Source of the DNA: Aquilaria yunnanensis
Lineage: Eukaryota > Streptophyta > Magnoliopsida > Malvales > Thymelaeaceae
Assembly (NCBI GenBank): GCA_039654915.1
Contig: CM077600.1
Location: 25,590,953-25,654,952 of the forward strand
DNA: 64,000 nt
Direction of reading: 5' to 3'
Numbering within the stretch: position 1 is the stretch's first letter; every line of letters begins with the position of its first letter. Shown one piece after another: positions 1-48,100 of this stretch. The notes beneath the pieces were generated by a model. It was given only the letters and a program-made list of their open reading frames with translations. It was not told the origin of the DNA and ran no database searches. The translations under genes were made by a program, and so were the position numbers.

Positions 1-170
1 TCACACATATATCATTTTAAATCAAATTTTCACAAAACAAAAATATATTTTAAACTAATTAAATTTTTTTTAATAATAATAGTAATATATATTTTTTTTT
101 TAAATTAATTTTTTTTTAATAAAATTTTTTTCAAAATTTTAAAACACCCGGACGAAATTGGGTGTCAACA
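1..170 (-). repeat. 3' LTR, first 170 bases only (cut by window edge)
   Basis: This stretch matches 15720-15889 at 169 of 170 positions with no length change; the one difference is an A/T in a T-rich run near position 91. On the minus strand it begins TGTTGACACCC at position 170, the expected TG start of an LTR, right next to the polypurine tract. The remainder, about 2.56 kb if equal to the other LTR, lies left of the window. Confidence 0.92.
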
Positions 171-186
171 GCTGCCCCCCTTTGCA
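171..186 (-). other. Polypurine tract (plus-strand primer)
   Basis: On the minus strand the sequence GCAAAGGGGGGCAGC directly precedes the LTR start TGTTGACACC. A G-rich purine run abutting the 3' LTR is the plus-strand priming site of LTR retrotransposons, and it fixes the element's orientation as minus. Confidence 0.85.
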
Positions 187-3385: not shown

Positions 3386-4015
3386 TTATGGGAGTGAACT
3401 GGTCGGGAAAGACTGTCGTGTCCAGTCTATCTGAATCATTGCTGGATCTGGTTCAGGAACAAAAGCTTGTATTTTATCTAGCAATTCTTCAGCAGTTGTT
3501 GCGGATATTATGATTCGCCGTGCCACTCTTGATATGAAATTCTTCTGCATAGCATAATCCATAAAAGCTATCAGACCTGTAAAGAAATTGTTAACATTCA
3601 AAAGCCCAATGGGTTTCTTATGCAAATTAAGTTGGGCCATGGAAGCAATTTGAAAGACTTCTCCCAATGTGCCAAAACCACCTGGTAGAGCGATAAAAGC
3701 ATCAGCATTTAAAAGCATTTGTAACACACGCTCTTGCAAATTTTTAACCACTAATTCTTCTCCAATCGTGCCCCCAGAAATAAATTTCAGAGGTCCAGGG
3801 ATAATACCCAGAACTTGACTTCCTCCTAGAGATGCTGCTGATGCTACACCTCCCATTAATCCGACACTACCTCCTCCATAAACTAAATGTATTTTTCGCT
3901 CAGCTAATACTCTTCCCAAATGGTTGGCTGCTTTTAAATACTCTTCATCTTTTCCAGGAAAAGCCCCAGAAAATACACAAATACTTCGGGATTTACGAGT
4001 TGGGGTTTTCTCCAT
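3386..4015 (-). CDS. LOG-like cytokinin riboside 5'-monophosphate phosphoribohydrolase, intronless, inside the retrotransposon
   Basis: 209 aa, a normal length for plant LOG proteins, which release active cytokinin bases from their riboside monophosphates in one step. It spans one lysine-decarboxylase-like Rossmann domain: ICVFSGAFPGK at 12-22, GGGSVGLMG at 47-55, the conserved arginine at 96 (QERV), PGGFGTLGE at 111-119 matching the family PGGxGTxxE signature, and KKPIGLLNV at 133-141. The family's usual cysteine after ICVF is serine here. I chose the ATG at 4015 because the N-terminus then matches the family and a TATA box lies at 4045-4056; an in-frame ATG at 4102 would lie upstream of that box. 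Plant LOG genes normally have several introns; this copy has none, which suggests capture of a spliced transcript. The frame is intact. Whether it is expressed or active is not shown. Confidence 0.85.
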   Translation of the reverse strand: MEKTPTRKSRSICVFSGAFPGKDEEYLKAANHLGRVLAERKIHLVYGGGSVGLMGGVASAASLGGSQVLGIIPGPLKFISGGTIGEELVVKNLQERVLQMLLNADAFIALPGGFGTLGEVFQIASMAQLNLHKKPIGLLNVNNFFTGLIAFMDYAMQKNFISRVARRIIISATTAEELLDKIQAFVPEPDPAMIQIDWTRQSFPTSSLP

Positions 4016-4056: not shown

Positions 4057-4108
4057 AGATGAAGAGATAAGGCAATAATTTTATTTTCAAGAATGGATAC
4101 ATTATTGC

Positions 4109-4521: not shown

Positions 4522-5070
4522 CTATGAATCGGTGATTTGCATCTCATCTAGCTTTCTCACAAACTGGCAAACAGGGTCGTTTAGGGTCAGATTCCCAAGA
4601 CTGTAACGATCTCGTTCTTTTTGGAAAATTATCCATAATCCAACAACCTCAAATTGCACTATTCCGCAAGAATGCGCTTCAAGAACCTCTCGAATATCTT
4701 CTAGAGATTCCTTACGCAAGCCATTCTTAATGAATCTTATTCTATCATTACGATTTCTGGTGATCACTCCTGGAGAACGACATTTATTGCCGCAAATCCA
4801 CCATCCACAATTATGACAAACGCCTAGCCTCTTTGCTCTTCTTTTTTTGGCATAAGCGCTTTTACCAAAGCCGGGCATACGGGGAAAGAACGCTTCTGGA
4901 ACTTCACCAGCTGAACGAACCTTAGCTTCAATTAGCCACCGCACATTATCAGGAATGCATTTGTGCATAAATACTCTGAATCGTTCACATCTAGCTTGAT
5001 AAATCTTTTTAAGAACATTTATTGGGAAGGAAGGAAAATACTTTCGTAGGGCGGAAAGAGAAGACTCCAT
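4522..5070 (-). CDS. Cargo ORF-C: unknown protein with CX2CX4CX3C cluster
   Basis: 182 aa from the ATG at 5070, chosen because the product then aligns without gaps to the two paralogues; an in-frame ATG five codons upstream would give 187 aa. Shared features: LRKYFPSFP near the N-terminus, a basic stretch KKRRAKRL at about 75-82, cysteines at 85, 88, 93 and 97 spaced CX2CX4CX3C, a second element AHSCG at about 132-136, and NDPVCQFVRKLD near the C-terminus. No signal peptide or membrane segment. The cysteine cluster suggests zinc and possibly nucleic acid binding, but I do not recognise the family. The TATA module at 5128-5137 lies upstream. Confidence 0.65.
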   Translation of the reverse strand: MESSLSALRKYFPSFPINVLKKIYQARCERFRVFMHKCIPDNVRWLIEAKVRSAGEVPEAFFPRMPGFGKSAYAKKRRAKRLGVCHNCGWWICGNKCRSPGVITRNRNDRIRFIKNGLRKESLEDIREVLEAHSCGIVQFEVVGLWIIFQKERDRYSLGNLTLNDPVCQFVRKLDEMQITDS

Positions 5071-5286: not shown

Positions 5287-5835
5287 CTATAAGTCGGGGA
5301 TTTGCTTCCCATCCAGTTTTCTTACAAACTGACAAACAGGATCGTTTAAAGTCACATTCCCAAGACTGTAACGGTTTCGTTCTTTATGGTAAGTCCTCCA
5401 TAAACTGATAATTTCACCTTGCACTTTTCCACAAGAATGCGTTTCAAGAGTCTCTCGGATATCTTCCAGAGATTCCTTACGCAGGCCATTCTTAATGAAT
5501 TTTCTTTTATCTTCACGATTTATGGAGATGTATCCTAAAGAGCGACATTTAGTAATACAATTCCATCGCCCACATTTATAACACACGCCTAGTCTCTTTG
5601 CTCTTCGCCTTTTGGCATAACGGCTTTTACCTAAACCGGGCATGCGGGGCATAAATGCATCTGGAACTTCACCCGCCAGACGGACCTTAGCTTCAATTAT
5701 CCACTGCACATTATCGGGAATGCCTTTGCGTGTAAAAACTCTGATTCTTTCACATCTAGCAAGGTAGATCTTTTTAAGGACTTTTATTGGAAGGGAAGGA
5801 AAGTATTTTCGCAGTGTAGAAAGAGTAGAATCCAT
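5287..5835 (-). CDS. Cargo ORF-B: unknown protein with CX2CX4CX3C cluster
   Basis: 182 aa, no gaps against ORF-A and ORF-C and by eye about two thirds identical. It keeps LRKYFPSLP, RYAKRRRAKRL, VCYKCGRWNCITKCRS (the four-cysteine cluster at 85-97), THSCG and NDPVCQFVRKLDGKQ. The frame is fully open. Function unknown; the cluster suggests metal binding. About 110 bp beyond the stop codon is also shared with the other two copies, so the duplication unit is larger than the ORF. Three intact equal-length copies suggest either recent duplication or selection on the protein; the sequence divergence favours the second. Confidence 0.65.
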   Translation of the reverse strand: MDSTLSTLRKYFPSLPIKVLKKIYLARCERIRVFTRKGIPDNVQWIIEAKVRLAGEVPDAFMPRMPGLGKSRYAKRRRAKRLGVCYKCGRWNCITKCRSLGYISINREDKRKFIKNGLRKESLEDIRETLETHSCGKVQGEIISLWRTYHKERNRYSLGNVTLNDPVCQFVRKLDGKQIPDL

Positions 5836-6124: not shown

Positions 6125-6673
6125 CTATGAGTCGAGGATTTGCTTCCCATCCAGTTTTCTTACAAGCTGGCAAACAGGGTCATTTACAGTCAGATTCCCG
6201 AGACTGTAACGGTTTCGTTCTTCATGAAAAATGCTCCATAAACCAAGAAGTTCACGTTGCACGGATCCACAAGAATGCGTCTCAAGAGTCAATTGGATAT
6301 CATCCAACGAGTCCTTACTCAGGCCATTCTTAATGAATCGTATTTTATCTTCTCGATTATCAAAGATCATCCCTAAAGAACGACATTTAGTATTACAAGT
6401 CCACCGTCCACATTTATGGCAGACTTGTAACCTTTTCACTCTTCGCTTTTTGGCATAAGAGCTTTTGCCTATACCAGGCATGTGAGACACAAATGCCTCT
6501 GGGATTTCACCTGCCAGACGAACCTTGGCTTCGATTAACCACCGCACATCTTCAGGGATTCCTTTGTGCATCAGAACTCTTAATCGTTCACAGCGAACTT
6601 GGTAGATCTTTTTGAGAATGTTCATTGGGAGAAAAGGAAAATATTTTCTTAAGACAGAAAGAGTAAGATCCAT
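6125..6673 (-). CDS. Cargo ORF-A: unknown protein with CX2CX4CX3C cluster
   Basis: 182 aa, first of the three tandem paralogues in the element's direction. Cysteines at 85, 88, 93 and 97 (VCHKCGRWTCNTKC), basic stretch KKRRVKR just before, THSCG at 132-136, and NDPVCQLVRKLDGKQ at the end. The module upstream is the most diverged of the set; a weak AT-rich TATA-like stretch lies near 6800, with no exact match to the shared box. It is not gag, protease or polymerase by any motif I know. It lies where pol would be expected in a complete element. Confidence 0.65.
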   Translation of the reverse strand: MDLTLSVLRKYFPFLPMNILKKIYQVRCERLRVLMHKGIPEDVRWLIEAKVRLAGEIPEAFVSHMPGIGKSSYAKKRRVKRLQVCHKCGRWTCNTKCRSLGMIFDNREDKIRFIKNGLSKDSLDDIQLTLETHSCGSVQRELLGLWSIFHEERNRYSLGNLTVNDPVCQLVRKLDGKQILDS

Positions 6674-10054: not shown

Positions 10055-11936
10055 ACCAATCACATCGGGCCTAGCAGCTTGACCTCGGTTTTGTTTGATT
10101 TGTAGAGGAATGGCCTTGGGACTTGACGGCTTAAGAGTAGGTTTTGAGATTGGTATAGCATTGACTTCTTGTTCTTTAATGATCACATTCACATCATCAT
10201 AAAAACGATAAGTTGGGATGAGTCTATGAGTCTTTGCAGATTCTTACGGAATTCTGAACATTCTTGGATAGAATGACTCTTACTGTCATGAAAGTTGCAC
10301 CATTCCTCATCTTCAACTTCTTCATGTCCAAAAGAAGGCTTTCCCATGATAATCCCTTCTTTCACAAGGCATGAATATACATGCTTAAGAGGGGTTATGA
10401 TATCATTGACTGACTTTTTCATCAGCCGGTGTTCTTCTATCATATTGACTGGTTTTTCTTGATGAGGCGGCAATGGATTGTGAGTGACGTTCGGTTCATC
10501 GGAAAAGTCCAACCACTTTGATTCGATTAATTGTTGGACTATACGTTTCAATGCTGTGCAATTTTCCAAGCCATTGGAACGCCATCATGATATGGGCAAG
10601 TTATGTTGGGGTCATACCACGTTGGATATGGGGGTCCAAATGGATTTGTAGGAATTGGACGGATAAGTTGACTTTCTATGAGTTTTGGATACAACTCAGT
10701 GTAAGTCATGGGAATTAGTGCAAAAACTTCTTTTGGTCTTCGTGTGGGTACTGGAGGAGTCGGAACAGGTGGCCGTAACTGATTAGGCCTGTTGAGAGGA
10801 TAATTGTTGGGCCTATTGGGAGGATAATCATTAGGCCTATTGGAAGGATAATCATTGGGCATATTGGGAGGATAGTCATTGGGCCTATTGGTAAGATAAT
10901 AATTGGGCCTTTTAGCAGAATAGGATAGGCGAGGACCGGTAGCCACAGTACCTACGAGGGGAATCCCTCTTTCGCGTCCTATTTGTTGTACTTCTTCATC
11001 TTTTGTTCTGGATGGTCCTCCTCTTTTCATAGGATCACTAAAGGACTCAGCAATCTTCCCAGTCCTAATCCCATGCTCGATCCTTTCTCCAGACATGACA
11101 ACATCGGAGAAATTAGTTGCCGAATTACCGATGAGTTTGTCATAATATGGGTATTTCAGTGTCTGGACAAACAAAGTAACCATTTCTTTTTCTGTCATGG
11201 GTGGCTGAACTTGTGCAGCTAAGTCCCTCCACCGTTGGGCATATTCCTTGAAAGTTTCTGGCTTTTTCTTCTCCATGTTTTGGAGAGTTTGGCGATCCGG
11301 AGCCAAGTCCATAACATGTTTATAGTTGCCGATGAAGGCCTGAGCAAGGTCATTCCAAGTTTTGATGTTTCTTGGTCCTTGACTTAGATACCACTGCAAT
11401 GCTGATTTTGTGAGACTTTCCTGAAAAAGTGCAATCCACACCTTTTCATCTTTTGTGAGTGGTTGTAGTCTCCTTAGGAACAGTGTGATGTGAGTGATGG
11501 GATCACTCGTTCCATCGTATTTTACAAAATCCGGTACTTTAAAGTCCGAAGGGATTATGACGTCTGGCACTAAGCAGAGGTCATCCACTGAGAGAGATCC
11601 GAATATATTACCTCCTTCAATGGCTCGCAGTCTCTTCTCTATTGTTTCGAGCTTTTGAGATTCTGCTTCTTCTTTTGGTAATATATTCTTCTCTTCATGT
11701 ACAGTATCTTGTTTCAGGTGAACACTAGCAGACGGTCCTGATTCTTGCAACAGGTTTTCTTGGACTGAGACTCGTTGCGGGGTGAATCCCGGGGGATAAG
11801 TGGGATCTTGTACTTCTTTGATGGGGACTTGAGTTGCTTTCCCTTTGATTAATTCCATCAATTGTCTCATCTGTTCTGACATACTTTCAATCTTGGACTC
11901 CATCTCCATGAGACGTCCTTCGGCTTGTTCTGCCAT
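10055..11936 (-). pseudogene. gag: Ogre/Tat-like gag polyprotein, broken by frameshifts
   Basis: The first frame (11936-10548, 462 aa) starts MAEQAEGRLMEMESK with a coiled-coil-like N-terminus, then the retrotransposon gag domain at about 150-270 with FQESLTKSALQWYL and YAQRWRDLAAQVQPP. A run of RPNDYPPN-type repeats follows (about 345-385). It ends just after CPYHDG, where the first CX2H...GHX4C-like knuckle should continue. The reading picks up in another frame at 10569-10189 (NCTALKRIV, then CNFHDSKSHSIQEC, a second CX2HX4HX4C knuckle), and a third stretch at about 10206-10055 continues in yet another frame. So at least two frameshifts, near 10570 and 10200, break the C-terminal half, while the core gag domain is intact. 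No protease or pol follows. Confidence 0.85.
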
Positions 11937-13152: not shown

Positions 13153-13428
13153 AGCTGTGGCAACGTCGGGTTTTCAGGAGTCGCCACCAATCTGTTTCAC
13201 CTAGGTCGATTGGTCACCTTAAATATTGGTCTGCGAGAGTTCGGGGGTTCGGGAGTACGGTTACGTTAAAACAACTTTGTTAAAACGCCCAAAAATTGGC
13301 ATCTTAGTTGATTTTAATTTTGTTTCGCTTTGCTTTTAAATAAATTTCAGTTAATTTTCAATCTAGAATTTTTAACTGAATTAATCGGATGTGGATTCTT
13401 GGTAATTAATTTGTATAGAATTTTATAC

Positions 13429-13640
13429 TTCCGAACCATGGACTCTGCCGAGTCATTTGGACACGGAAGATTTTTATTCCGAACCATGGACTCTGCCGAG
13501 TCATTTGGACACGGAATTTGGTGAAAATTTTAATCCATATCGTAAAAATATGGATTTTTATCTTTTTATTTAATTTATTTATTTTGAAAGTTTGATATTT
13601 TCCAAACCGTAGATCCTGCTGGATCATCCGGATATGGAAA
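13429..13640. repeat. Three copies of a ~38-bp word inside the LTR
   Basis: Two near-identical copies at about 13429 and 13480 (CGAACCATGGACTCTGCC, then GAGTCATTTGGACACGGAA) and one diverged copy at about 13602. Each contains GACTC...GAGTC as a short inverted repeat. Confidence 0.8.
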
Positions 13641-13754
13641 TTACTTTAATTAATTGTTAGTTATATAATTATTATTTTTATGGAATTTATTATTACTAAT
13701 TTGTAAGTCTTTTGTTTTTAGATTTATTAATAATCTAAAAAAATTATTTTTTAT

Positions 13755-14010
13755 TCTTTACATTTTCTTTTCTTTTCTTTCTTTTCTTTCTTTCTTTTCT
13801 TTCTTTTTGATTTTATCTTTCTTTTAGTTTTATTTTTCCTTTCTTTTCTTTCTTTTCTTTTCTTTTCTTTTTCTTTTCTTTCTTTTCTTTATTTCTTTTC
13901 TTTTTTTATCTTTTCTTTTTCTTTTCTTTCTTTTCTTTCTTTCTTTTCTTTTTTTATGTTTTTCTTATCTTTCTTATCTTTTTCTTATCTTTCTTTTAGT
14001 TTTTTTTAGT
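13755..14010. repeat. Pyrimidine tract (TTTCTTTTC)n
   Basis: About 250 bases almost entirely T and C on the plus strand, built of TTTCT and TTTTC words. On the element's own strand it is a purine tract. Confidence 0.85.
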
Positions 14011-14214
14011 GAAAGTTATTTATTATTTAAATAATTATTCAATTTATAAAAGAAAAATAAAAATAATTGGCTTTTTAAAAAATTATTTTTATTAGGCTTA
14101 AAAAATAATCTTCTTTTAATTTTCATTTATTTATTTAAGTAAGGGTAAAGGTGAATTAAATTAAAAAAAATTATATAAAGGAAAATTAATAATAATAAAG
14201 TGGGGCTTTTTGGC

Positions 14215-14760
14215 CATCCACTTTAAAAATAAATAATAATAAAGGTTAGCAAAGTTAATTAAATTAATTAACAACAATAATAAAAATTAGCCAAGTTTAA
14301 TTAAATTAATTGATTAACAACAATAATAAAAAGTTAGTCAAGTTAATTAAATTAATTGATTAACAACAATAATAAAAAGTTAGTCAAGTTAATTAAATTA
14401 ATTAATTAACAACAATAATAAAAAGTTAGTCAAGTTAATTAAATTAATTAATTAACAACAATAATAAAAAGTTGGTCAAGTTAATTAAATTAATTAATTA
14501 ACAACAATAAAAGTTAGCCAAGTTAATTAAATTAATTAATTAACAACAATAAAAGTTAGCCAAGTTAATTAATTAATTAATTAACAACAATAAAAGTTAG
14601 CCAAGTTAATTAATTAATTAACAAAAATAATAAAAAGTTAGACAAGTTAATTAAATTAATTAACAACAATAATAAAAAGTTAGCCAAGTTAATTAAATTA
14701 ATTAATTAACAACAATAATAAAAAGTTAATTAATTGTTAACAACAATTATAAAAGTTAGT
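14215..14760. repeat. AT-rich tandem repeat, ~40-58 bp, about 11 copies, in the LTR
   Basis: Units contain AACAACAATAATAAAAAG, TTAGCCAAG and TTAATTAAATTAATTAATT. Copy length varies through gain or loss of TTAA words. Confidence 0.85.
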
Positions 14761-15373
14761 AATAATGCAAAAATTAAAAGGTTAGTAACAATAATAATAT
14801 TAAAAGTTAGTTGTTAGTAAGTTAATAACAAAAAAAAAAGGGTTAGTAATAATAACAAATAAGTAAAACAAGTAAAAATTAAAATAGTTAGGAATTAATT
14901 CTGCAAGAACAAAATAAAAGGTTAGTGACCAAAGTGAAAGAAATAAAAAAAATAGAGGACAAAACAAGGGTTGTACCCTTTAGTTTTAATTTTGAATTTT
15001 GCTGGGAACATGAGACAGAGCACACGCGAGGGAGGAGGAGGGAGGAGCAGGCACGGCGCAGGGGAGGAAGAGGAAGGGCAGGGTGGCGCAAGGGAGGAAC
15101 GCAGCGGCGGCGTGGCGGCGGCGCGGACGGAGCGGCGACAGGCGACGGCCGGCGGAGGAAGGAGAAAGAGAGAGAAAACGAGAGGAGAGAGAGAGAGAAC
15201 GCACGGGAAATGGAAGGAAGAAGATGGTCGAACTGTCAAAATAAAAAATTTTGGGATTTTCTGGAGAAAGGAAGGAGAGCCAGGGGCTAAGGCAGTAATT
15301 TTTTCTATTTTTTAAAACGGAGCTCTAAGCTTTCTATGTATTTTTTTCTGTGTTCAGCACAAAATTTGGGGGG

Positions 15374-15382
15374 CTATTTATA
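15374..15382 (-). promoter_or_regulatory. TATA box of the LTR promoter
   Basis: TATAAATAG on the minus strand, about 510 bases inside the 5' LTR, flanked by CCTC and CCCCCC. It implies an RNA start near 15345-15350. Confidence 0.7.
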
Positions 15383-15889
15383 GAGGAAGTTTAGCTGAAC
15401 TGTTGATGGATAAATTAATAAAAAATTTCAAACTTATCTCTTAAATTGGTAAAATGACAATTTTAGTCCTTTACGTCTCTCAGCCTCAGGATAAGTTCCT
15501 GAAGCTTCTGATTTTGACAATTTTGTCGTTTTCTGTCAATTTGAGCCAAAAACGTTGGCAGGCTCAAAATTTTATGTGACAAACTACCAAATGCTCCTGG
15601 AACTTTTAGAATTTGTCAATTTTTTTTCGAAACTTCTCAATTTTGTCATTTTTACCTCAAACTTTTAATTTTTTGTCATTTTTTCATGAAATTTTATTTT
15701 ATTTCAAACATACACATATTCACACATATATCATTTTAAATCAAATTTTCACAAAACAAAAATATATTTTAAACTAATTAAATTTTTTTTAATAATAATA
15801 GTAATATATTTTTTTTTTTTAAATTAATTTTTTTTTAATAAAATTTTTTTCAAAATTTTAAAACACCCGGACGAAATTGGGTGTCAACA

Positions 15890-17197
15890 CATGTGTTGGT
15901 TTTTGAAATGTGAATTTGATATTTTTGTCAAAGCTTGTTTTCCCCTTCTTATGATTTTATTGTATTGAATATCGTCATAGCTCATATAGTAAAATATCTG
16001 AAAATGATGTTTACTAGATGTTTAACTATTTTTATATTATTTATTAATTGTTAGAAATAGTGAAAAATTGAATTGTGATCTCGATCGATTATTTATGACT
16101 CCATTTATTCAAATGTATTCTTTTCATTTCTATAAAATAAAAAAATAAAAATAAGCGAATGAGATTTTAGCCTGGTGGGTAGCATCAAGCTTTATTCATC
16201 ATAGATTATATAAAATACATTCTTTTAAAGTTTACTTATTCATATAGAATCAATATTTTTATTTCAATGCTAATATTTTATCTTCATAACAGTAAATTGA
16301 AACAAATCATAAATAATTAAATAATTATTTTCAATGTTTTTACCACCCAAAATAAAGATAAAAATTAATAAAAAAAAATTCTTTTGTACTTTTTAAAGTA
16401 TAAAATTCTAATCAATGTACAATCCGAGTAAACAGTCATCATATAAAATAAGCACTAAAAAGTTTTCCCAAAAAAAAGAAAAATAGCGAACATGTTACAA
16501 GGCTTTAAGACGTCTTACTCAGAATATGCTAATCATTTTGAGCATAAATATTATTATCTAATTCATAACTTGTAAATTTGTTTATTAGTGTTAGTAGTGT
16601 CCTTGATGGTTTAATTAATCATATATGATGGAATATATGGGACAAAGGGAAACAAAATGAATAACTTAAATAAATAAATGGTACATGACCGGAAAATTGA
16701 AAATAGAAAACGAATGAGATATTAAAGTAAAGCAAAGTCGCTCTTTTTAGTTTTAACAAGTATTAAACAGCAATCTATTTGTTCTTAATTAAAATATAAG
16801 GTAAAAATGATAGCAGGAGTAAAATAATGGTGATAATAGAGAATTGTATAAAAAAATTACTATATTGAATAATTGGTGTACACGTGTCTCAAAATAACTA
16901 CTAGGTCAGGTACCATAAAAAGATCCTTTAAAATGTTCTAAAATGTTTGTAAAAAAAAACAGGTTTCAAAATGGAAATTGTGGTGAAGAATTTACGAGGA
17001 TGGAGGTTTTTTTTTTTCATTTTGTTCTCCACGTTAATGGGTTATTATTATTTTTTTTTGGTAAAAGAAGGAGAAGACAAAAAAGAAGCAAACAAGAGCA
17101 ACTAATGACAACAAGAGAAACGAGAAATTGAATTCTGGGATTCTTCAATGAATTTATCCTTCCCTTCCTAGTACAGTACATGATTTAATATTTGGAA
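15890..17197. other. Intergenic, AT-rich
   Basis: No gene, clear repeat or RNA found. The open frame at 16943-17131 is low complexity and unsupported. Confidence 0.6.
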
Positions 17198-36100: not shown

Positions 36101-39100
36101 AAGTAGAGTTCATTATATGTTGATTCTTGCTCCAGCCGCTGCATTGGAGTGTTTGTGTGTGTGTGTGTGTGTGTGTGTTAACTTGCCCATGCAAGCAGAT
36201 AAAATGAATATTAATGATGGTTTTGGAATTTCATCTCATAATTTTCTCAAGGTTTCCATAGATTTTTTAAGTGAATATGATTTTTAATGGCTAATGGACC
36301 TTGTGAATTTCTTTCTGCCGATCCAAGTTCCTACATAATTGAGATTGAGATGCAATATGATATGATGATGGTGATGATGATAATGATATAACTTTTGAGC
36401 TAGTAGGCATATTTTTATGTTGAGTAATGCCCTTATATTGGCCATTTGGTCCTTTCTGCTGTTTGTGTTGCTTTAATCCTTCTCTTGATGAAGTTATGTT
36501 TTTCTCATGCCCCCTATTTTACATTGCAGAAGATGAACACATAAGCACTACATCATCGATAGATAAGAAGCATTTTGATGTTGCCCCTGCTTCCATAAAT
36601 CTTCGGCCACCACCTGTTGAACGTCTTAAATCATTTGATGAAGAAGATCTTGCAACCAAGCCTATTGTTGTCAAGAAATCTGTACCACCTCCAACAAATG
36701 TATCATCATATTCAATTGCAGATCTCCAGATTGCCACTGGAAGCTTCAGTGTTGAAAATCTTCTTGGTGAAGGGTCTTTTGGACGTGTATACCGGGCACA
36801 ATTTGTTGACAGCAAGGTTAATTCCGTCGTCCTTCTCAAATGGATAGTTTTCAGTCATTATTATGCAATAGAAAATAGCTCTTTACTCAATATTCTTACG
36901 ATTTCTTAAACTGCTGATGCACCTTTGACATACTTCTTTTGTCTACAATGTTTTCTTTTCCTATAGTGAGGATATTTTCCATAAAAGAGCATTAGTCAAT
37001 TTACTTCTAGCTTTGGTCACAAAAATGTTGCCTTTTTTTTTTGGCAAAATATAATGACTTCAATCCTTATAGAATCTTTGCAATCATTTTCATATTTTTG
37101 GCAATATTGTCTTCTAACTTACAATCACTTTGTTATAGGTTCTTGCCGTGAAGAAAATAGATTCCTCTGCTCTACCTAGTGCAATGTCGGATGATTTTAT
37201 GGAGGTTGTTTCAAACATCTCCCGCATTGATCACACCAATGTGACAAAGCTGATTGGCTATTGCTCAGAGCACGGACAGCACCTACTTGTTTATGAGTAC
37301 CACAAGAATGGGTCACTGCACGACCATATGCATCTATATGATGATGAAAGCAAACCATTGATATGGAATTCTCGTGTCAAGATTGCCTTAGGGACTGCAC
37401 GTGCTTTAGAGTAAGTTGATAATATATTCTGCAAAATAGATGTTTGTTGAATATTGTTTTATCATTTTACCATAGACCAGTATGAAATGGGTGGTGTCCA
37501 ACTGAACCTCCTTCCCCACCCCCCTTACACTAAAGCAGTTATCAAATTGCATAAAATGTATATAGAAAAATAGTTAGCAAATTCAATGATCCAATGCATT
37601 TGGTTTCTTATATATCTGGTCTGCAGAATGCAGGAGCTGTAAATGGTCTGGCGTTAATTGCTTTGATGTAAATAGAAACAAAACGACCAGAAGCCCATGT
37701 CACCTACAAAAAACAGCATTTTCTCTTCCAGTTTGTGTGTGTGGGTTTTTTTATATGCAGCAGTAGTGTATTTATATTATTGAAGGAAACAAGAAGAGCA
37801 AGCCATTTTCGCATCCAGTGTTGTTGGTCACTGTTCTTGCAATGTTTACATGCCATCAGTCTGGTTTACTTAATTATTGTCACTTAATGCTAATAAAGCA
37901 TTCAGTATTCAAAAGATTCTAGTCGAACTAGATTGTGCTAGCATTTGGTATCTTAATTAGGTTGGACCCCAGAATGCTTACAAGGGTCATATGTCAGAAT
38001 GAGGAACGATCAACGGGTCTTCAAGAAGTCCTGGATCTTTAAAATCCTGGTTGTTAGTTTCGTTCTCTTAAAGTTCCCATTACAAGTTCATGAGAGATTT
38101 TTCTTTTTCAGGTATCTGCATGAAGTATGTTCACCATCGATTATTCATAAAAATATCAAGTCAGCCAATATCCTACTGGATTCTGAGCTCAATCCCCATC
38201 TTTCAGATTCGGGCCTTGCAAGCTTCATTCCAAACTCAGATCAGGTAGCCTCCTAGATATTGTCTTCAACTGCATATCAGCATTAGCCAACAGTTTGTAT
38301 GATCAAGATATGAGTTTATCCTGAGTTGAACTTTTCTTGCCATGCCTATGTTTGCTGAAGTTGTACTCTAGTTCTACTCACTTTTGAAGCTGGGTTGCCT
38401 CTTTGCAGTGATTGGCTGCCAGTTCTTGCAACGCATGCAATGTGCTGCATGTTAGTAATTTGCTTCATCAGGAACTGTAGTTATGTTGTTTTATTCTCAC
38501 TTGTTTGTGAGACTCATGGTGCAAGCTGTATGCAAGTCGCTGCATATGATGGCCAAACTTCTATTCTATTCCCTCTCTTTCTATGTAGGAGGGGGTGGGT
38601 TGGTATGATTAAGGGTGCATCAAGGAAATGGAAATTGCAACGTCTAAAAACTATTAAAATAAGACTGGCCTCAGATCCTCAACACTATTCATGCTCTTGT
38701 GCATCGTTTTGTGCTAGTAAACTTACAACTGTCTCTGTGCCTGTCCCTCTGCATTTGCAGGTATTAAATCGTGGTGATGAAAGTTCTGGGTATGTTGCAC
38801 CCGAAGTTGTGCTCTCGGGTCAGTATTCTCTGAAGAGTGATGTTTACAGCTTTGGAGTGGTTATGTTGGAACTTCTTACGGGACGCAAACCCTTCGACAG
38901 GTAGGGAGTCAAGGAAGAGGACACAGTTGTCACTCACAATGTTATTGTTGTTATGGCGTAGAGGGGCATTATTCCTAAGCCAATTTAATACAACTAACAG
39001 TCAATGTTATGTTTCAATCAGTTCCAGGCCAAGATCAGAACAATCACTAGTCCGGTGGGCTACACCTCAGCTCCACGATATCGATGCTTTGGAAAAGATG

Positions 39101-39421
39101 GTTGATCCGACACTGGTAGGACTTTATCCAGTTAAATCTCTCTCCCGGTTTGCAGATGTCATCGCTCTGTGTGTCCAGGTAATCTCCGAACCATAAGTTT
39201 CAAAACACAGCTGAATGTTCTTCAACCATCTACCGCAACTGAGGTTTTCACTTGTTGGCCTTGGACAGCCGGAGCCTGAGTTTCGGCCTCCTATGTCGGA
39301 AGTTGTTGAAGCATTGGTCCGACTGGTGCAGCGAGCTAACATGAGCAAGAGAACAGTCGGGAAAGACCAGGGAGCAAGCCAGCGAGCCGACCACAATCCT
39401 GATGGGCAAGATTACATGTAA
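33131..39421 (+). CDS. STRUBBELIG-receptor-family LRR kinase, SRF6/SRF7-like
   Basis: Membrane receptor-like kinase, 723 aa. Exons: 33131-33233, 34215-34347, 34454-34525, 34626-34691, 34772-34849, 34944-35015, 35145-35216, 35303-35368, 35479-35541, 35616-35920, 36530-36816, 37139-37410, 38112-38244, 38761-38900, 39022-39178, 39269-39421; together 724 codons with no stop. Signal peptide 1-28, N-terminal cap with [10 protein letters not shown], about six leucine-rich repeats (each on its own small exon), a proline-rich stretch at about 252-262, membrane helix at about 293-315, then [15 protein letters not shown] and a kinase domain from about 405. P-loop GEGSFG is present, as is Lys444 in LAVKK, but the catalytic loop reads HKN (Asn544 for Asp) and the DFG motif reads DSG (562-564), so catalysis is doubtful. 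This is typical of the SRF6/7 group as I recall it. Confidence 0.93.
34571..34597. repeat. (ATT)9 microsatellite in an SRF intron
   Basis: Uninterrupted ATT repeats between exons 3 and 4. Confidence 0.95.
36154..36178. repeat. (GT)12 microsatellite in an SRF intron
   Basis: Uninterrupted GT repeats between exons 10 and 11. Confidence 0.95.
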
Positions 39422-39605
39422 ACTCAACCGGAAATGATGGCTTGTCTTGGGGATGAAGTTACTGAGTCTGGGGATTTGTGTGTAAAGTTGAATGGAAGGG
39501 CAAAATGATACTACACATCTGCTCTTATTCTGTCAAATTTAGTCTCAAATCTGCCCTTTCAATGTTGTGTAAATGTAGAAATAGTAGGTGTCCTCCCATT
39601 TTTCC

Positions 39606-39608
<3 letters not shown>

Positions 39609-39637
<29 letters not shown>
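39609..39637. repeat. (TC)14 microsatellite downstream of the SRF gene
   Basis: Uninterrupted TC repeats about 190 bp after the stop codon, probably in or near the 3' untranslated region. Confidence 0.9.
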
Positions 39638-39639
<2 letters not shown>

Positions 39640-40563
39640 TTTTTTTTAATATTTTGCTGTTTTATAAGTGTGTCCGTTTGGTAACGGTGTTCACAAATTT
39701 ATCATTGGATAGGATTTTCAAAGTGGGATGGAGGAAGAGAATTCGAAGCTTTAACATTGTGATAATGATAATAAGCCCTTGATGACAACAGCCATTTCGG
39801 ACGAGATGAGATTGATGTTTAATTTGAAATATCCAATAAGTAGTTGATAGTTTTGCAAATAGTTTTAAATGTGTGTATTATTTTTTGTTTGCTTAAAACT
39901 TTGCTCATCCTTTTTTTATGTGGCTGCCCAACTGTATTAAGTAGAGGTTACATAAAACTAAACAACAAATATAAAAATAACATGTTCTTAAGTAACCAAC
40001 ATAAAACAGTAATACATAAGTCACATAGTTCTTCTATTTTAAGTTACTGCTTTCGCTCTTGTGCTACCTCTAATTTAGGTTGTTGCTTTTGCTTTTATGC
40101 TTTTGCTTCCACTCCTACTTTTAACCGTCTCTTCCGTTCTCATTTTTATAATATTTTTACTTAAATTTAAAAAGTTATGTTTTCTGTTCTCACTTCCATT
40201 CCCACTTGAACGACATTTTGTGTCACTTAGGTCAATACTCAATAAATAGGATTAAAATAAAAAGATCATCCATTTTATTTTCAATTCAAATAACTCATTA
40301 GTTCGTTCTTCTCATTTTAAAAGTAAATGCTATCTGAAACTTTAGGTGAAGGTGTGAAGTAGCAAGGGCTTTGCCCTGCCATATTCACCAACTCAGGTTC
40401 AAGATATGTCAAGCCTTTTCTTTTGAGTATCAAAAAAAAAAAAAGTAAATGTTGTATTACTTATTAATTACTTGAATAATTTTTCTACAAATCTTTTATA
40501 AATGTTTTCATACCCAGCCCAGTAAAAAAAATTTATATTAAAAATATTTTAATAAAATTTTAA

Positions 40564-41312
40564 GGAAAAAATAACAAATAAACCACTAGCGTTTTTGTGC
40601 TGACCCAATTCACCCACTAATGTTTTTTTTTTCCAAATAAACTACTGATATTTCCGAGTCGGCTCAAATCGAGTACTCTTGTAATTTTAACTATTAAGTC
40701 TAACAGAATCTGAGCATAAACTACCAAGTTTAGTTCCTATATTTTATACTTCTGCTCCCAATGCCTATTAAGTTTATTGATTTAACATTTGAACCACCTT
40801 TTTAAGGCTGACATTGATCCTCGGACTCTGTTTATAGGTAGTAATTGAGATCATCCTAAATTTGCTGATAGTGGTTATGATATTCCTCCTCTTACTCTAC
40901 CTCATATTGCACCATAATCTTACGTCAAGTACTAATATGAGCGAAACATCATTCGGGGGTGGCAGTGTGGGGTGGGAGGCATCCCATTTTGGGCAACAAA
41001 GATAATACACTTTGAAGGAGTTAGAAGCAGCAATGAATAGATTGGGCCCAAAAAATGTAATTGTGGAGTTTTGTAATTGGTGAATGTAGCCTATTTGAAC
41101 CAAGTGGAGCTATTTTGTTAATTTTAAAAGGTTAATGATGGAATTTTGTAGTATTTCAAGAGCTGAGTGGCTAAATTGACCTATTTGAATAATGTTAGTG
41201 GTTTATTTGGTTATTTTGAATAATATTAGTGGTTTATTCGTCTGGGACAAAACATTAGTGGCCGATTCAAGCAGGGTCCAAAACGTTGGTGGTTTACTCG
41301 TTAGTTTTTGCA
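40564..41312. mobile_element. Mutator-like transposon with 9-bp target duplication, upstream of KXD1
   Basis: Flanked by AAATTTTAA at 40555-40563 and 41313-41321, a perfect 9-bp duplication typical of Mutator-like elements. Ends are inverted: GGAAAAAATAACAAATAAAC on the left, reverse GCAAAAACTAACGAGTAAAC on the right, with similarity going inward over 100 bp or more. No transposase. It ends 116 bp before the KXD1 start codon. Confidence 0.85.
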
Positions 41313-41428
41313 AATTTTAATTCATACGCTTTAACTGAGTTAACACGAGCTACTCTCCCGAGTCAGAAGCAACCTGTGCTTTGTATTTTAGATTGATGTC
41401 GAGGTCGTCGTTCGCTTGCAGCTGAGAA

Positions 41429-44400
41429 ATGGAGGAAACAAACCTACAAGCAGCTTCGGAGGAGGTATCTCGCGAGTTCAAAACCCTAATAGATGCCCAA
41501 GATTTGGACTCTCTGAAGCAATTGCAGAATGTTATGTATGTTATCTTCCTCATTCTCTTGTTTCATTTTTTTTTTTCTTTTGGTTGCTTTTATTGCTGCT
41601 TCCCTAGAATTGCAAGATGAGATTTGAGAATTCTTTAGCCATTGCATAGCTTGGAACCTGTACTAGGGACAAACAGAATTTTGATTCTAGGCACACCCCA
41701 CTGCTTTGGGGAGAGAGAGACATAGGCAGGGAGAGGAGTGAACTTTTAGCTCCAAGCAATGTAATTTTTACCATACGATCACTTTATTTTATGGATTCAA
41801 AAACTTATTCTGATCTTCTGAGGGAACAAAAGGAGTTTAGCAACCACCTTCTTGGCAATAGTCCCAGTGGCTGGATGGAGAAATATGCCGTTTGCTTATG
41901 ATTAGAAGCATCACAAAGCTTTTAGGAATTGAAAATTGGGATAGAAGAGAAAGTGAATTTATGGTGCATTTATAAGGCACACATATGTAAGCTTAACTCA
42001 GTATGCGGATTAGGTATGTTAGTCTACTAGTTAAAATCATGGAGAGATTATCATAATATTTTCTTTATTTTCAATCCTAAGCTATCAATAAGATGGTCAG
42101 ATAAAGATCTCTTGAAGTGTCTCCCATATTGTGTGGTCATCATTTCTTTTATGGTGGCTAGCAATGAATATCAAATTAACTGTTCCGCATGATTAAGAAC
42201 CTTCATTCTTCAGTCCTTAGAAAGCCTTTCTACTGTTATTGGCTATGGTAGCTATGCTTTAGGATACACTAGAAACCAGCACCGGTAAACCTTTTTTTCC
42301 CCTTTTTTTATTTTTCCATTTTACCGAATTTGGTGTTGTATTGTGTTGTAGCAAAAATTTCTTTCCATCTGCACCGTTGAAACTTGAAACCATTGTCAAC
42401 CCATTTAATCCAGGAAAGAGTTGTATACTTGACACCTCACCATTTTAGGACTGAAGAACACCAAGCAAGTGGTTTATGACCTTTATAGCATTAGAATGGC
42501 TTAGGGCTTAGTTTATGACTCCTGTTTAATTCCCCCATGGTGCTATATGTATTATTAAGCTCTTAGGAATCTAGATCAGGTTAGTTTTACAAAATAATGT
42601 CATCTCGGTAGTTTTCTAGATCTATTAGTAGTTCCAGATGATATCTGAAGAGTATAGTTTTCATTCTTAATTTCATAGATTTGTTGTGTTAGCTTCTATG
42701 TCCCACTGGGCATAGGTTTTTTTGCCCCATTAGGAAAAATAACTTCCAAAGTGCTATATAAGCATGTAATTCATTCAACTATAACAGAACTGAGTATAAT
42801 TTAGAACATTTGGGAGTATTATCCTTTCTTGGATTGTCTGATGCAACTAGGCCTAGCACCAAGCTGTGAGCCTTAGGAACCCTTGGGATGTGATCTATGA
42901 GGTTTTTAGTTTCTTTTCCTTAATGCATCATTTTAGGTCTATTTTTAGTTAGAAGCTGTTCACAAAACCTTAAACCAACAACTTATAAATATTTGACCCC
43001 TTTAAATTGTAATGTTTTAGTCCAACCACTCTACCAATCCTACATCAATGGCTTTTGTGGATTTTTCCACGTTGAAAACTCCCTGATCTCTCTGAAATTT
43101 CTTCTCATTTTGAAAACCCTATTTCTCTTCCCTTCCCAATTTTGCTACCACACAACTGAGTTTCTAGAATATGTAGGCACAGTTGGTGCTTTGTTGTTTA
43201 CTTTCTAAGCAGAGAAACTTGCATTTAGTTAAATCTTTCTGCTAATTAAGTGCTTGTAGCAGATTTATTTTTTCATTGTGAATAAGGTAAAGGAGGTGTT
43301 GTAGACCTTGGGTAAAAAGATGGCATGAACTCTTACTGTCTAACTAAATAGCAAACAAGTTTTCAGTGTTTATCAGATACTAATTTTTGTAAACTCTGAT
43401 TTTTATTCTGTCTTCTAACAAGGATGGAGCTATATATCTATCTACATATTGACATCTGTCTCTTCCTGTCATTTTTATGTTCCTAATGAGTTTCCATTTA
43501 ATTTGGTTTAATATACTGGAAAATACAACTGAGAATCTTGTTTGTCTTACCTTGTTTTGCTGTGGTTTGTACTGGCAACAAGACTTTTTTTTTGCCTCCT
43601 ATCATTAAGATTATCTTGTCCAACATTGCAGTTTGGGGAGGTTACAAGATAGCAATGCTGTCTTAACTCATTTTAACGAGTTTTCAGAGCACTGCTTTGC
43701 TGAAGTTTCTGGTGACTTATTGAGGAACACACGTCTTTTAAGGTCTATGAAGGCTGACCTTGATTACATATTCCAAAAGCTAAGGTATGGTGAGTTCATA
43801 TTAATTGCAGGTTTTGAAAGAGTTAACAATTCACTTTTCAGCCCGTTCTTTCTTGGCATGGCCCCTTTTGTTGTTAAAAGTTCTGCAGTGTATTCTGTTC
43901 GTTGTAATATATGTCATATGAGTGATTTTAATTAAAAGGATCTTCATTAATCCTCTGCTTTTATGACAATTTTTAACTTAATAGTCTCCTTATTCTTAAT
44001 TGTATGCGAGAATTGTGGGTTTCTGTTTCATGTTGCATAATAAGAGTTTCCTCCAACTCAATGTTAACAGATTCATTCTTTTTTTTTTTTCGTAGCAAAT
44101 GTTAAAGGATTCATTTATGCAATGTCTGCAATTCTTAACTGCTTAAACCCCACCTGCATGTTTGTGGGATCATCCTGCGTGGTTCCATATTAAACAGTTT
44201 CTGTTATAGCTCCATCCTGCGTGGTTTAATATTAAGCAGTTTCTGTTACAACATTTGGGATCGGCATCAGCAATTACAATTGAGACCATATTTACATTTT
44301 GCAATATTTGATGACACCTTTTAATCTGCGCAGGGACATAAAGTCGAGAATTACAGCCATCTATCCTGATGCATTTGCCGAAGATTCATCACAGGAGATA

Positions 44401-44436
44401 TTCGACCAAAGGCCGGACCTTGAGGTTCCTCAGTAA
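41429..44436 (+). CDS. KXD1: KxDL-motif protein (KXD1 family)
   Basis: 120 aa from three exons: 41429-41535, 43632-43784 and 44334-44436, with introns of 2096 and 549 bp; the joined frame is exactly 121 codons. The product is a small, mostly helical protein with EFKTLIDAQDLDSLKQLQN in exon 1, LRNTRLLRSMKADLDYIF spanning the KxDL motif (KADL) in exon 2, and a C-terminus DAFAEDSSQEIFDQRP. KXD1 proteins are linked to BLOC-1-related complexes of endosomes and lysosomes in animals and yeast; the plant role is less known. No signal peptide or membrane segment. A Mutator-like element lies directly upstream and may overlap the promoter. Confidence 0.88.
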
Positions 44437-45105
44437 CTCAAGATCAATGAACCAAGCTAGCAACCCATTCATTTTACTTAGGAATGTGAAGCAGCGTTTT
44501 ACACTTCACTTTTAGTGTCCGCTTGCTTTTCTTTGCTTCAATCTTCCCCCTACTAGTTCTTCCCTGTCCAATATCTTGTATTCGTGTATAAGAAAGAACG
44601 AGGAAAGAGTACATGCAGGTTCGTAAATGGCATCTACCACATTTACACCTTACGCACGTCTCCAGTCTCCACTAACTTTGGTCTTTCAGGATTAAAAACT
44701 CAAAAAAATCGTAGACCTACGATTCCTACAAAAGAGCAGGCACACCTCAACCTCACGGACAAGCTTTGCTTCTTCGGTTTGTTCACTCGTTCATTTTAGT
44801 GTTCAAAAGATCGATATGAAAGCCTTACCTACTGAAGAGCAGACACACCTCTCTTTACCTATCGGTTCTGAAGCACCTCAAATTATATGCCTCAATCCAG
44901 TCATAAAATTCATGGAACGGTCTTTCCAATGTCACGTACAAATGAAAAGCAAAGTCCATCCCATGTCTAGTTCAATTAAAGAGGCAGTTAATCCCAACAA
45001 TAAAAGAACAATCGCATTACAAACTGAAATACAAGGATCACATCGTCGTTTTCAAACACTTCCCAGATTTTGTGATTCCAGCATCTTGTTTTCATTCCCA
45101 CAAAT
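44437..45105. other. Shared 3' region between convergent KXD1 and RPT1
   Basis: KXD1 (plus) and RPT1 (minus) end 669 bp apart, so this stretch must hold both 3' untranslated regions. Open frames at 44584-44799 and 44816-45109 have no recognisable motifs. Confidence 0.6.
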
Positions 45106-48100
45106 TTAGTTGTAGACCATATATTTTGGTGTGGCACTAAACTTCTGGTACCCCTTAATAACTTTGTTCACAGCATCTAGAAAGTCCTTTTCCGTAACTG
45201 TCTTCCTCCTGGCTCTGATGGCGTACATCCCTGCTTCCGTACACACACTTCTTATGTCCGCTCCTGCAAATGAATATATAAGTTGCGTTAGAAGTGCGCC
45301 ACAAAATACTTGTGCACAAACAGAAGTCACCCCTGAAAAATCCTTACCAGTAGAGTTTGGACAAAGCCTAGCTAAAAGCTCAAACCGGATGTCCCTCTCA
45401 CAATTCATCGTCCTTGTGTGGATCTTGAATATTTGCGTCCTGCTCTCCAGATCAGGCAAACCAAACTCAACCTTACGGTCCAATCTACCAGGACGTAACA
45501 GTGCAGGATCCAATGTGTCAGGCCTGAAAATCGTTCAATAACAATACTTAAACTAGTTGTCACATATACCCTACAGAACCTAACACCATAATATCGATAA
45601 AACCAATACAGAGGAAGTGTTGAAACCCTAAACGCAAATTTAACCTGTTTGTAGCCATCAGGACTTTAATGTTACCACGAGCATCAAATCCATCAAGCTG
45701 ATTGACAATTTCAAGCATTGTTCGTTGTACTTCATTGTCACCACCCACACCATCATCAAAACGCGCACCTCCAATAGCATCAACTTCATCAAAGAATACA
45801 ATGCATGCTTTCTTTGAACGTGCCATCTAAAAAATATGCCATCAAAATGGCCAGATAAGGAGGCATACCAAGAAGCAAAAAAGAGTGATAAATAGAACCA
45901 CACAGCTAGGAAATTAGCAATTAATACCTGGAAGAGTTCTCGGACCATTCGTGCTCCCTCCCCAACATATTTTTGCACAAGCTCACTCCCAATCACTCTA
46001 ATAAAGCATGCATCAGTTCTATTAGCCACAGCCCGGGCAAGAAGTGTTTTCCCAGTTCCAGGAGGTCCATAACAGAGAACACCTTTGGGAGGATCAATTC
46101 CAAGCTTAACAAATTTCTCAGGGTGAAGCATAGGAAGCTCAACAACCTACAAGCATTAAGCACACTGATGACCTAAAGATTTATGTATCTTCCCACCATT
46201 TAATATCTTTCATTGTAGAGCAACAAGAGAGGTGCACCTGACTAGCCCAAAAATGAAATAAACTAAGGTAGAAGCTATAGCCTATTGAACACACACACAC
46301 ACACACAGAGGTGGCAAAAGACTAGACATACTTCTCTCATCTTCTCAATCTGTTCTTTGCAGCCACCAACATCATTGTAGGTCACATCCGGCTTCTCCTC
46401 AACAGTCATCATGGTCACACTTGGATCAATTTTGGGGGGCAGAGGAATTTGTATTTGATATTTGTTACGGTCCACACTACAACAGAGGAATGATTTTTTA
46501 TTACAGCCTTACCAAAACATACAAACAATAAGAGGGGGAAAACACCACATCATTATAAATTTCAAATATGACGATTCCAAGAAAACAAAACTTACCCAAC
46601 CCGCATGCCTTCTTCAATATCAGTGGGAGAGACCTTGTCACCGAGCCCAACAACAAACTGCAGGTCAAGGAAACAAATGAAATTAATTGAAAATGATAGT
46701 TCAGGGATGCATCTCTGTTAGAGGGAGAAAATCCTTGTCTGCTACTGGTAAAGTATTGAGAAATTAAATACTGAGCAGACAAACTCTTGTTTGAATGTTA
46801 ACCAAAGCTGAACATATCAATAAGAAAGGTCTGGTCACACACCTTGGCTATTTGTTTGACATTAATCACATATTTAGCATCGTCTGTGTTGGGATTGATT
46901 ATCTTTGTGCATCTTGCGACCTGAATGCAATAACAGTCAATATCTATAAAACCTGAATATAAAAGAAATGCACTCCACCAAAAATTCTTAGGGAACGGAA
47001 AAAGAAAAACACCTGAAGGGGTTGCTCCTCCTGCATCATCTGCTTATCTGAGACAAGATCCCACTGGCTTGGTGCAGCTAAACCAGTGTCAGATTCCTTG
47101 ATGCCTATTTCACAGCAGATAGTACAGAAACACATCTTAACAAATTGTGACATAAACTATAACTCGCAGGGAAAAAAAATCAAAAAGAAAAACACAAAAA
47201 ATTGTGACATCAATGATAATGCAACTCAACAGTGCATAGCAAAGAGAGTTCTGCTAACCAACAGAAGGCTTATTTGGTAATAGGTGGTAATACTGTGTAA
47301 CTCAATGGCTGCAGCAGCCAAATGTGAGCTAGTCCTAACATATCATGCACCACATTTCTACAAGGCAATGCAGAATATAAAAGTAAACTATCAAAAGCTA
47401 ATGGCTGAGAACACCTAGCATCCTCTTTCCTAAAACTGCAGTGTAACATATTCTAGATTACAAAGTGTTTGCATCATTAGGTACTCTTTACAAGTCAAAC
47501 AACTCCAAAATGAAACAAAAAGAGATACAGAAAACCAAATAAGAAAAGGGTAACAATAATCATACTCAGTGAGCTCAAACCAAGCTTAGACTAAAAAGAC
47601 ATACCACATAAATCATTCACTTTTTTGGCCATCTCTTTGATTTCTTTCTCCACTTTCTTTATGCTTGTGGAATATGGCCCCAAACCCTGTAGAAACAACA
47701 AAATTGCAAGAGAAATTTTCAATGCTTGCCCAAAATTATTACCATGCGCCTTAATGAGTATTGCATTGGACTAAAGCTAGATGCCATAGCTAAGTAAACA
47801 AACAGTCAGTCGAATAATAGATCGAGATCAAAGAAACCAACCGAACCCACTTGTTTAAAAACATATTTGGTGCAAACCGACCTCGCCTAGTTCTCATCTA
47901 AAATAAATCTAAAACCCCAGGCAGCTTATTGTTCTAACAGAACGAATTTTTCGACAGAAACAGGCTCTTCATCTAATCGAGACAAACAAATCGGAAGCTA
48001 GGGTTTTCGGGCAGACTTACATAGGTCTTGAGGAGAGCGATGTCGTCCTCGTCGAGAGGGCGAGGATTCTTCTCATCCTTGAGCTCCTCTGGTTCTGCCG

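Follow-up and report, generated by a model that had tools for sequence, protein, structure and literature searches.

The window analysed here is a 64,000-nucleotide stretch of the Aquilaria yunnanensis genome (contig CM077600.1, positions 25,590,953 to 25,654,952). At its left end lies an LTR retrotransposon of 18,453 bp in total, which reaches from 2,564 bp before the window start to position 15889 and is read on the minus strand. Its features are the following.

1-170, minus strand: first part of the 3' LTR (sense TGTTGACACC...), 170 bp that are 99.4% identical to 15720-15889
171-183, minus strand: polypurine tract adjoining the 3' LTR (sense AAAGGGGGGCAGC), read from the sequence and its placement at the LTR edge
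526-2841, no strand: tandem array, about 47 units of ~51 bp, separating LOG from the 3' LTR (Tandem Repeats Finder)
3386-4015, minus strand: LOG-family ORF, 209 aa, intronless (Pfam, NCBIfam and structure searches)
4522-5070, minus strand: NABP-like ORF N3, 182 aa; PF05515 27.1 bits (cut-off 23), PF01623 20.8 bits (just below the cut-off of 20.9)
5287-5835, minus strand: NABP-like ORF N2, 182 aa; PF05515 31.5 bits and PF01623 24.3 bits, both above cut-off
6125-6673, minus strand: NABP-like ORF N1, 182 aa; PF05515 24.6 bits and PF01623 23.5 bits, both above cut-off
10548-11936, minus strand: gag ORF, 462 aa; Retrotrans_gag 46.3 bits
13134-13155, minus strand: probable primer-binding region adjoining the 5' LTR (sense GCTTGGCGACTCCACTGGGGA), read from the sequence and placed from the LTR edge
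13156-15889, minus strand: 5' LTR, 2,734 bp (LTR pair comparison)
15890-15894, no strand: right target-site duplication CATGT; the left copy is at genome C8:25588384-25588388

When 3.5 kb were added on the left of the window, the two LTRs were found to be 2,734 bp each and 99.74% identical (7 mismatches, no gap), the remaining 2,564 bp of the 3' LTR being located at genome C8:25588389-25590952. The near-identical pair has TG...CA ends and is accompanied by the polypurine tract, and the target-site duplication CATGT flanks both ends of the element. A preliminary description of this DNA had considered both element borders identifiable; this is true of the right border, and the other LTR is cut by the start of the window. 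Under two assumed substitution rates, the LTR divergence would translate into roughly 0.1-0.2 million years.

The gag ORF is assigned to Ty3/gypsy by its Retrotrans_gag match, the Ty3_capsid profile remaining below its own cut-off (25.8 versus 29.1 bits), and gag-like sequence runs on in another frame (10584-10189) beyond the end of the ORF. None of the ORFs inspected in the window element, those between gag and the first NABP included, resembles pol, and the element was therefore classified as a non-autonomous derivative. Searches for tRNAs and Rfam families gave no match.

The LOG ORF starts at 4015, codes down to 3389 and ends with a stop codon at 3388-3386; an in-frame ATG also occurs further upstream, at 4102. 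Its 209 codons are free of internal stops and encode the GGGSVGLMG motif, the conserved Arg and PGGFGTLGE, in agreement with the PGGxGTxxE signature and the catalytic Arg/Glu pair of LOG proteins. In its 238-aa form the protein matches Pfam Lysine_decarbox with 106 bits (cut-off 27), and NCBIfam TIGR00730 is matched with 149.6 bits (cut-off 96.35). A search of solved structures identified AtLOG3 (2a33, E 9.3e-52), which is also the top PDB match of Foldseek (E 6.0e-21) for the AlphaFold2 model (pLDDT 84.4). The intact, intronless LOG ORF of the preliminary description is thereby upheld, as is its position within an LTR retrotransposon in the element's own orientation: it lies on the same strand as gag, and the LTRs and target-site duplication enclose it. 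That description did not mention the strand, which is minus, the three tandem NABP-like ORFs, the missing pol or the high copy number. TATA-like motifs occur 34, 60 and 121 bp ahead of LOG, N3 and N2, respectively (that of LOG being TATAAAT at 4055-4049); as five such motifs occur on that strand within the first 7000 positions, they were set aside as evidence.

The three tandem 182-aa ORFs upstream of LOG all match Viral_NABP (PF05515) above cut-off, and two of the three match Carla_C4 (PF01623). The basic stretch and Cys cluster of these profiles are both present, and the match covers only the middle ~85 residues. A homologue search returned 184 relatives. In an alignment of 28 proteins, composed of the three window ORFs and 25 proteins chosen among the 120 matches listed, PF05515 was detected in 24 and PF01623 in 21, at E <= 0.001. 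The structural model of N1 is poor (pLDDT 61.7), and its best Foldseek match among viral proteins has an E-value of 0.013, none being at or below 0.001. We take 18 of the first 21 viral entries, all with E > 0.001, to be named flexivirus proteins; 16 of these 18 bear the name of an RNA silencing suppressor or a nucleic-acid-binding protein. In viral contigs, the NABP profile search retrieved no relative, and the LOG profile retrieved 29 distant LOGs with 27-33% identity.

Outside the element, probable host genes lie at 36427-46131, with a protein kinase match at 38.4-38.9 kb and AAA ATPase matches at 45.1-46.1 kb. A further probable host gene, at 60109-61398, is a 429-aa ORF without a Pfam match, which we take to be fucosyltransferase-like.

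Copies in the genome and constraint on the encoded proteins

The 842-Mb genome was searched with LOG, and the best 150 of 3,666 first-look candidates were scored. The identical 209 amino acids, without a stop, are encoded at all 150 of these best-scoring places, a sample outside which decayed copies fall; the window's own copy is also outside it, so that the copies number at least 150. The preliminary description had named a one-off decaying insert, with no other LOG-bearing copy, a dN/dS near 1 and no transcript, as the outcome that would defeat it. The first two do not apply: one-off capture is rejected by the identical protein at 150 of 150 places, and amino-acid change is strongly suppressed, as detailed below.

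Thirty loci, the first in the LOG-ranked list, were read with 1.5-kb flanks. An NABP is present upstream of LOG in all of them and is open in 29 (a stop occurs in L050). The 30 loci contain 23 LOG haplotypes, and they differ from the window by an average of 7.0% over the 500 bp upstream of LOG and 3.0% over the 400 bp downstream. An assembly artefact was rejected on the basis of the pair's presence in 30 of 30 loci. The same observation applies to the proposal that LOG and NABP are host genes into which a retrotransposon inserted by chance; the LTRs and target-site duplication enclose the pair, which moreover recurs behind an integrase at two other loci (see below). We found nothing in support of either version, and their combined probability is negligible.

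The LOG sequences of two copies, L036 and L040, carry 22 and 28 synonymous differences from that of the window and not one amino-acid change, compared with about 71 and 90 amino-acid-changing differences expected without selection. The absence of amino-acid change is partly built in, because the list was ranked on LOG identity, but constraint is firm for the L036 and L040 lineages, because the expected 71 and 90 changes are absent. The N3 ORF, on which the ranking was not based, has a pN/pS of 0.237 over 30 open copies (window included, L050 left out), and the pairwise dN/dS values of N1-N3 are 0.32, 0.21 and 0.29.

Four further copies were examined over 10 kb upstream of LOG. Two of the four contain gag, three contain three NABPs, and a match to the integrase of the relative described below is absent from this interval in all four. 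Not every NABP is whole in these copies: L063 has one NABP in two frames, L064 has one with a stop, and L062 has a single NABP. Open gag frames longer than that of the window occur in L063 and L065 (533 and 589 aa across the two copies).

Pol-bearing relatives and homologues in other plants

The NABP profile search of genome contigs yielded a single locus, L030, in which a Ty3-type integrase ORF is followed by an NABP in sense; LOG was not found on this 3.3-kb contig. The dN/dS values of N1, N2 and N3 against this NABP are 0.20-0.24. The locus (DAIEQH010000041.1, 194-2347) carries a plant-type integrase and NABP and is filed under a bacterial MAG, Candidatus Nomurabacteria, where it is apparently a contamination.

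Comparison of the L030 integrase with the A. yunnanensis genome gave 91 scored places, the eight best of which were taken as loci. Although these integrase loci are decayed, an NABP directly follows the integrase, in sense, in seven of the eight, and in two (L068 and L072) a LOG follows the NABP. Neither NABP nor LOG was found beside the integrase of the eighth (L070), and in the other five integrase-NABP loci, to each of which 2.6 kb had been added, the stretch of about 3.2 kb that follows the NABP contains no LOG match. Taken together, the three adjoining or overlapping loci L076, L068 and L074 contain, interrupted by stops and frame breaks, gag, RT, RNase H, integrase, NABP and LOG, besides a weakly matching protease. 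The old pol-bearing LOGs have pN/pS values of 0.34-0.47 relative to the window LOG. The integrase and gag of this lineage appear Athila-like. The lineage thus usually has an NABP after the integrase, and some of its members also have LOG.

Since LOG is seen in decayed pol-bearing loci, some elements already had LOG after pol and NABP when the pol-less family had yet to spread. The preliminary description had held that the window element itself captured the gene; this is unsupported, because two decayed pol-bearing relatives already have the order integrase-NABP-LOG.

These loci also bear on the idea that LOG is a passenger, a host gene caught once and carried without effect. Captures of genes by transposable elements run to hundreds in maize, rice and sorghum, as reported in the part of the literature consulted (PMC7264820), and the lack of LOG in five of the seven pol-NABP loci would be in keeping with it. 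It is contradicted by the zero amino-acid versus 22 and 28 synonymous changes of the two copies, by the LOG of two older pol-bearing relatives and by NABP-LOG gene models in two other plants. Recent conversion among the conserved copies might rescue it, but the 23 haplotypes in 30 loci oppose such conversion, and we consider a passenger very improbable. The two gene models, P0086 of Rhamnella and P0118 of Gossypium, fuse NABP and LOG sequence, P0118 with only 41 LOG residues.

Among the 120 LOG matches listed, 35 are from Reevesia; among the 120 NABP-like matches listed, seven are from Orobanche gracilis and O. minor, which are parasitic plants. Multi-copy plant LOG gene models, such as those of Reevesia, may be genes of mobile elements, and could then mislead surveys of host cytokinin genes. 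Seven source-sequence lengths are common to 119 of 120 NABP and 73 of 120 LOG matches listed, which is a hint of linkage only: 8723 and 4511 are the only telling ones, one length joins different sources and one is that of a chromosome.

In a tree of 121 rows, the 116 homologues and the window sequence are split from AtLOG3, AtLOG8 and two bacterial LOGs (support 100/98, with the bootstrap unsettled). P0191 branches first in the family, and the window pairs with P0122. The tree is silent on the source host LOG, because its rows were chosen as best matches. A C-terminal LxLxL tail, which we take to be an EAR-like motif, is present in 100 of the 120 best LOG homologues listed (P0122-P0241); the Arabidopsis LOG stretches compared stop short of the C-terminus and are silent on such a tail in host LOGs. 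Because the window lineage, like the old pol-bearing relatives L074/L075, is without it, the tail forms no part of our explanation.

Catalytic residues and the base pocket

In the structure paper on Corynebacterium LOG, in the part available, Arg99 and Glu122 are described as catalytic, Met96, Lys100 and Glu121 form the adenine site, and Met96, His97, Lys100, Glu125 and Trp129 form the prenyl site (PMC4979012). In an alignment with the window protein (CgLOG numbering), R99 and E122 are retained, whereas all six listed adenine and prenyl residues are substituted (M96L, H97Q, K100V, E121G, E125Q and W129M); S19A is a further change. The argument on the pocket is built on this one structure paper and the alignment.

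Among 116 of the 120 listed best homologues (P0123, P0124, P0127 and P0184 were left out for length), 112 retain Arg99 and 114 retain Glu122. The pocket positions vary: Trp129 is kept in 113, Glu121 in 110, Met96 in 87 and His97 in 57, Glu125 in only two and Lys100 in only one. The latter is P0191, which keeps both Lys100 and Glu125, as do three Xanthoceras proteins among the four excluded. P0191, with its LxLxL tail and its position at the base of the family, possibly represents the state before the pocket change. In the old copies L068 and L072 all six pocket positions already differ and Ser19 is kept; the remodelled pocket is therefore old. L072 has lost the catalytic Arg, as may happen in a decayed copy. 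Judging from the sequences compared, the remodelled protein is the version conserved among the young copies.

The preliminary description had regarded the protein as an active cytokinin-releasing enzyme. This is doubtful, because every reported adenine and prenyl pocket residue is substituted. A working cytokinin-activating enzyme could raise the level of active cytokinin and with it cell division, favouring the copying and inheritance of the element, and would be consistent with the predicted LOG fold (top PDB match AtLOG3), the retained catalytic Arg and Glu and the strong constraint on the protein. It is at odds with the six changed residues and S19, with their presence, S19 apart, in the old L068 and L072, and with the cytokinin-specific NCBIfam model CtkRMPhLog, which gives 98.7 bits against a cut-off of 300, although P0191, with K100 and E125 kept, likewise falls short at 133.4. 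We therefore consider this role unlikely.

The protein might instead have ceased to be catalytic and be kept for binding a nucleotide or a partner, for example by competing or pairing with host LOG. The loss of the pocket residues in a conserved protein would fit, as would the dimeric nature of LOGs, in which the pocket is formed by both chains, according to the text available of the structure paper (PMC4979012). Pure binding would not require the catalytic residues, however; that the window copy has both, with Arg99 present in 112 and Glu122 in 114 of the 116 homologues, therefore speaks against this proposal, which we rate as improbable.

Proposed role and comparison with known systems

The reading we favour, with a probability of about 0.57, is that LOG belongs, as an accessory gene, to a Ty3/gypsy lineage whose members would have NABP, and some of them also LOG, directly after pol. 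In this plant a derivative would have retained the LTRs, gag, a triplicated NABP and LOG, lost pol and recently spread to at least 150 copies, presumably moved in trans by enzymes of pol-bearing relatives. The LOG protein would have been under strong purifying selection during this movement, which argues that it serves the element. As the LOG fold and the catalytic Arg/Glu are kept and the base pocket is remodelled, its likeliest role, if expressed, would be to hydrolyse, in those cells in which the element is active, a nucleotide that is not one of the standard cytokinin ribotides. The NABPs would probably suppress silencing or act as regulators that bind nucleic acids, by analogy with their viral counterparts. 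Several observations count against this reading: LOG is missing from most of the pol-bearing relatives seen; the LOG identity of the 150 places is partly an effect of the ranking; the old pol-bearing LOGs show pN/pS values of 0.34-0.47 relative to the window, and the LOG of L072 is without the catalytic Arg; and, with respect to the altered pocket, K100 and E125 persist in P0191 and in the three Xanthoceras proteins, which belong to the wider family.

More tentatively, NABP and LOG may form a host-manipulation cassette that follows the logic of viral accessory genes, with the NABP as a regulator and LOG re-purposed to hydrolyse a nucleotide signal of another kind, such as a defence nucleotide or some other nucleotide with a modified adenine, and selected as an aid to copying or to escape from silencing. 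This is possible, although we lean against it.

To our knowledge, few of the extra genes carried by plant retrotransposons have been assigned a role. In the present element, one such enzyme is amino-acid-identical between diverged copies, stands beside genes of a protein family known from viruses and has a pocket unlike that of the host's enzyme. The role of an accessory gene in plant retroelements thereby becomes testable by means of a small soluble protein. The locus also points to a protein family common to plant RNA viruses and retroelements, one that we take to be known from viruses that counter silencing.

Several known systems resemble the present element in part. Like the carlavirus and flexivirus cysteine-rich/NABP proteins, its NABPs combine a basic stretch with a Cys cluster and match the Pfam profiles above cut-off; unlike them, they are encoded by a retroelement, measure 182 aa, are matched only in the middle ~85 residues and are known from sequence alone. 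A viral example, p12 of Chrysanthemum virus B, is characterized in the text available as both a suppressor of silencing and an activator of transcription in the nucleus (PMC7588395). The fold, phosphate loop and catalytic Arg and Glu of AtLOG3 and AtLOG8 are common to the window LOG, which differs from them in its changed pocket and separate tree branch and is itself intronless and mobile.

As in Retand elements, to the extent that they are covered in the part of PMC11963269 available, the 3' internal region is large and holds tandem repeats as well as additional genes, and some Retand members are non-autonomous. The extra ORFs of Retand, between pol and the 3' LTR, are antisense and mostly TRP28, whereas those here are in sense and comprise NABP and LOG. 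Gypsy elements of Phalaenopsis likewise carry an additional enzyme of host-like type, AlkB; this AlkB is active in vitro and its kind has also been reported in Betaflexiviridae, according to the relevant part of PMC9289625. Both the enzyme and the host differ from those of the present element.

Further counterparts are Gypsy elements in which a LOG-family domain (YgdH) likewise forms an extra domain, so that a LOG domain in plant LTR retrotransposons is already in print (PMC9289625). The part of that work available describes it in Gypsy-type elements of Citrus sinensis, C. clementina and, without the authors' filter, Populus trichocarpa (Alvarado-Marchena et al. 2022), and cites Steinbauerova et al. 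2011 for YgdH domains. Its YgdH section mentions neither an NABP partner nor a changed pocket nor constraint, and in the literature searched we found no report of NABP in retrotransposons, of the NABP-LOG pair, of the pair's constraint or of the altered pocket. Compared with the YgdH Gypsy elements, the carrier in A. yunnanensis is without pol, bears three NABPs and is present in at least 150 copies with an identical LOG protein.
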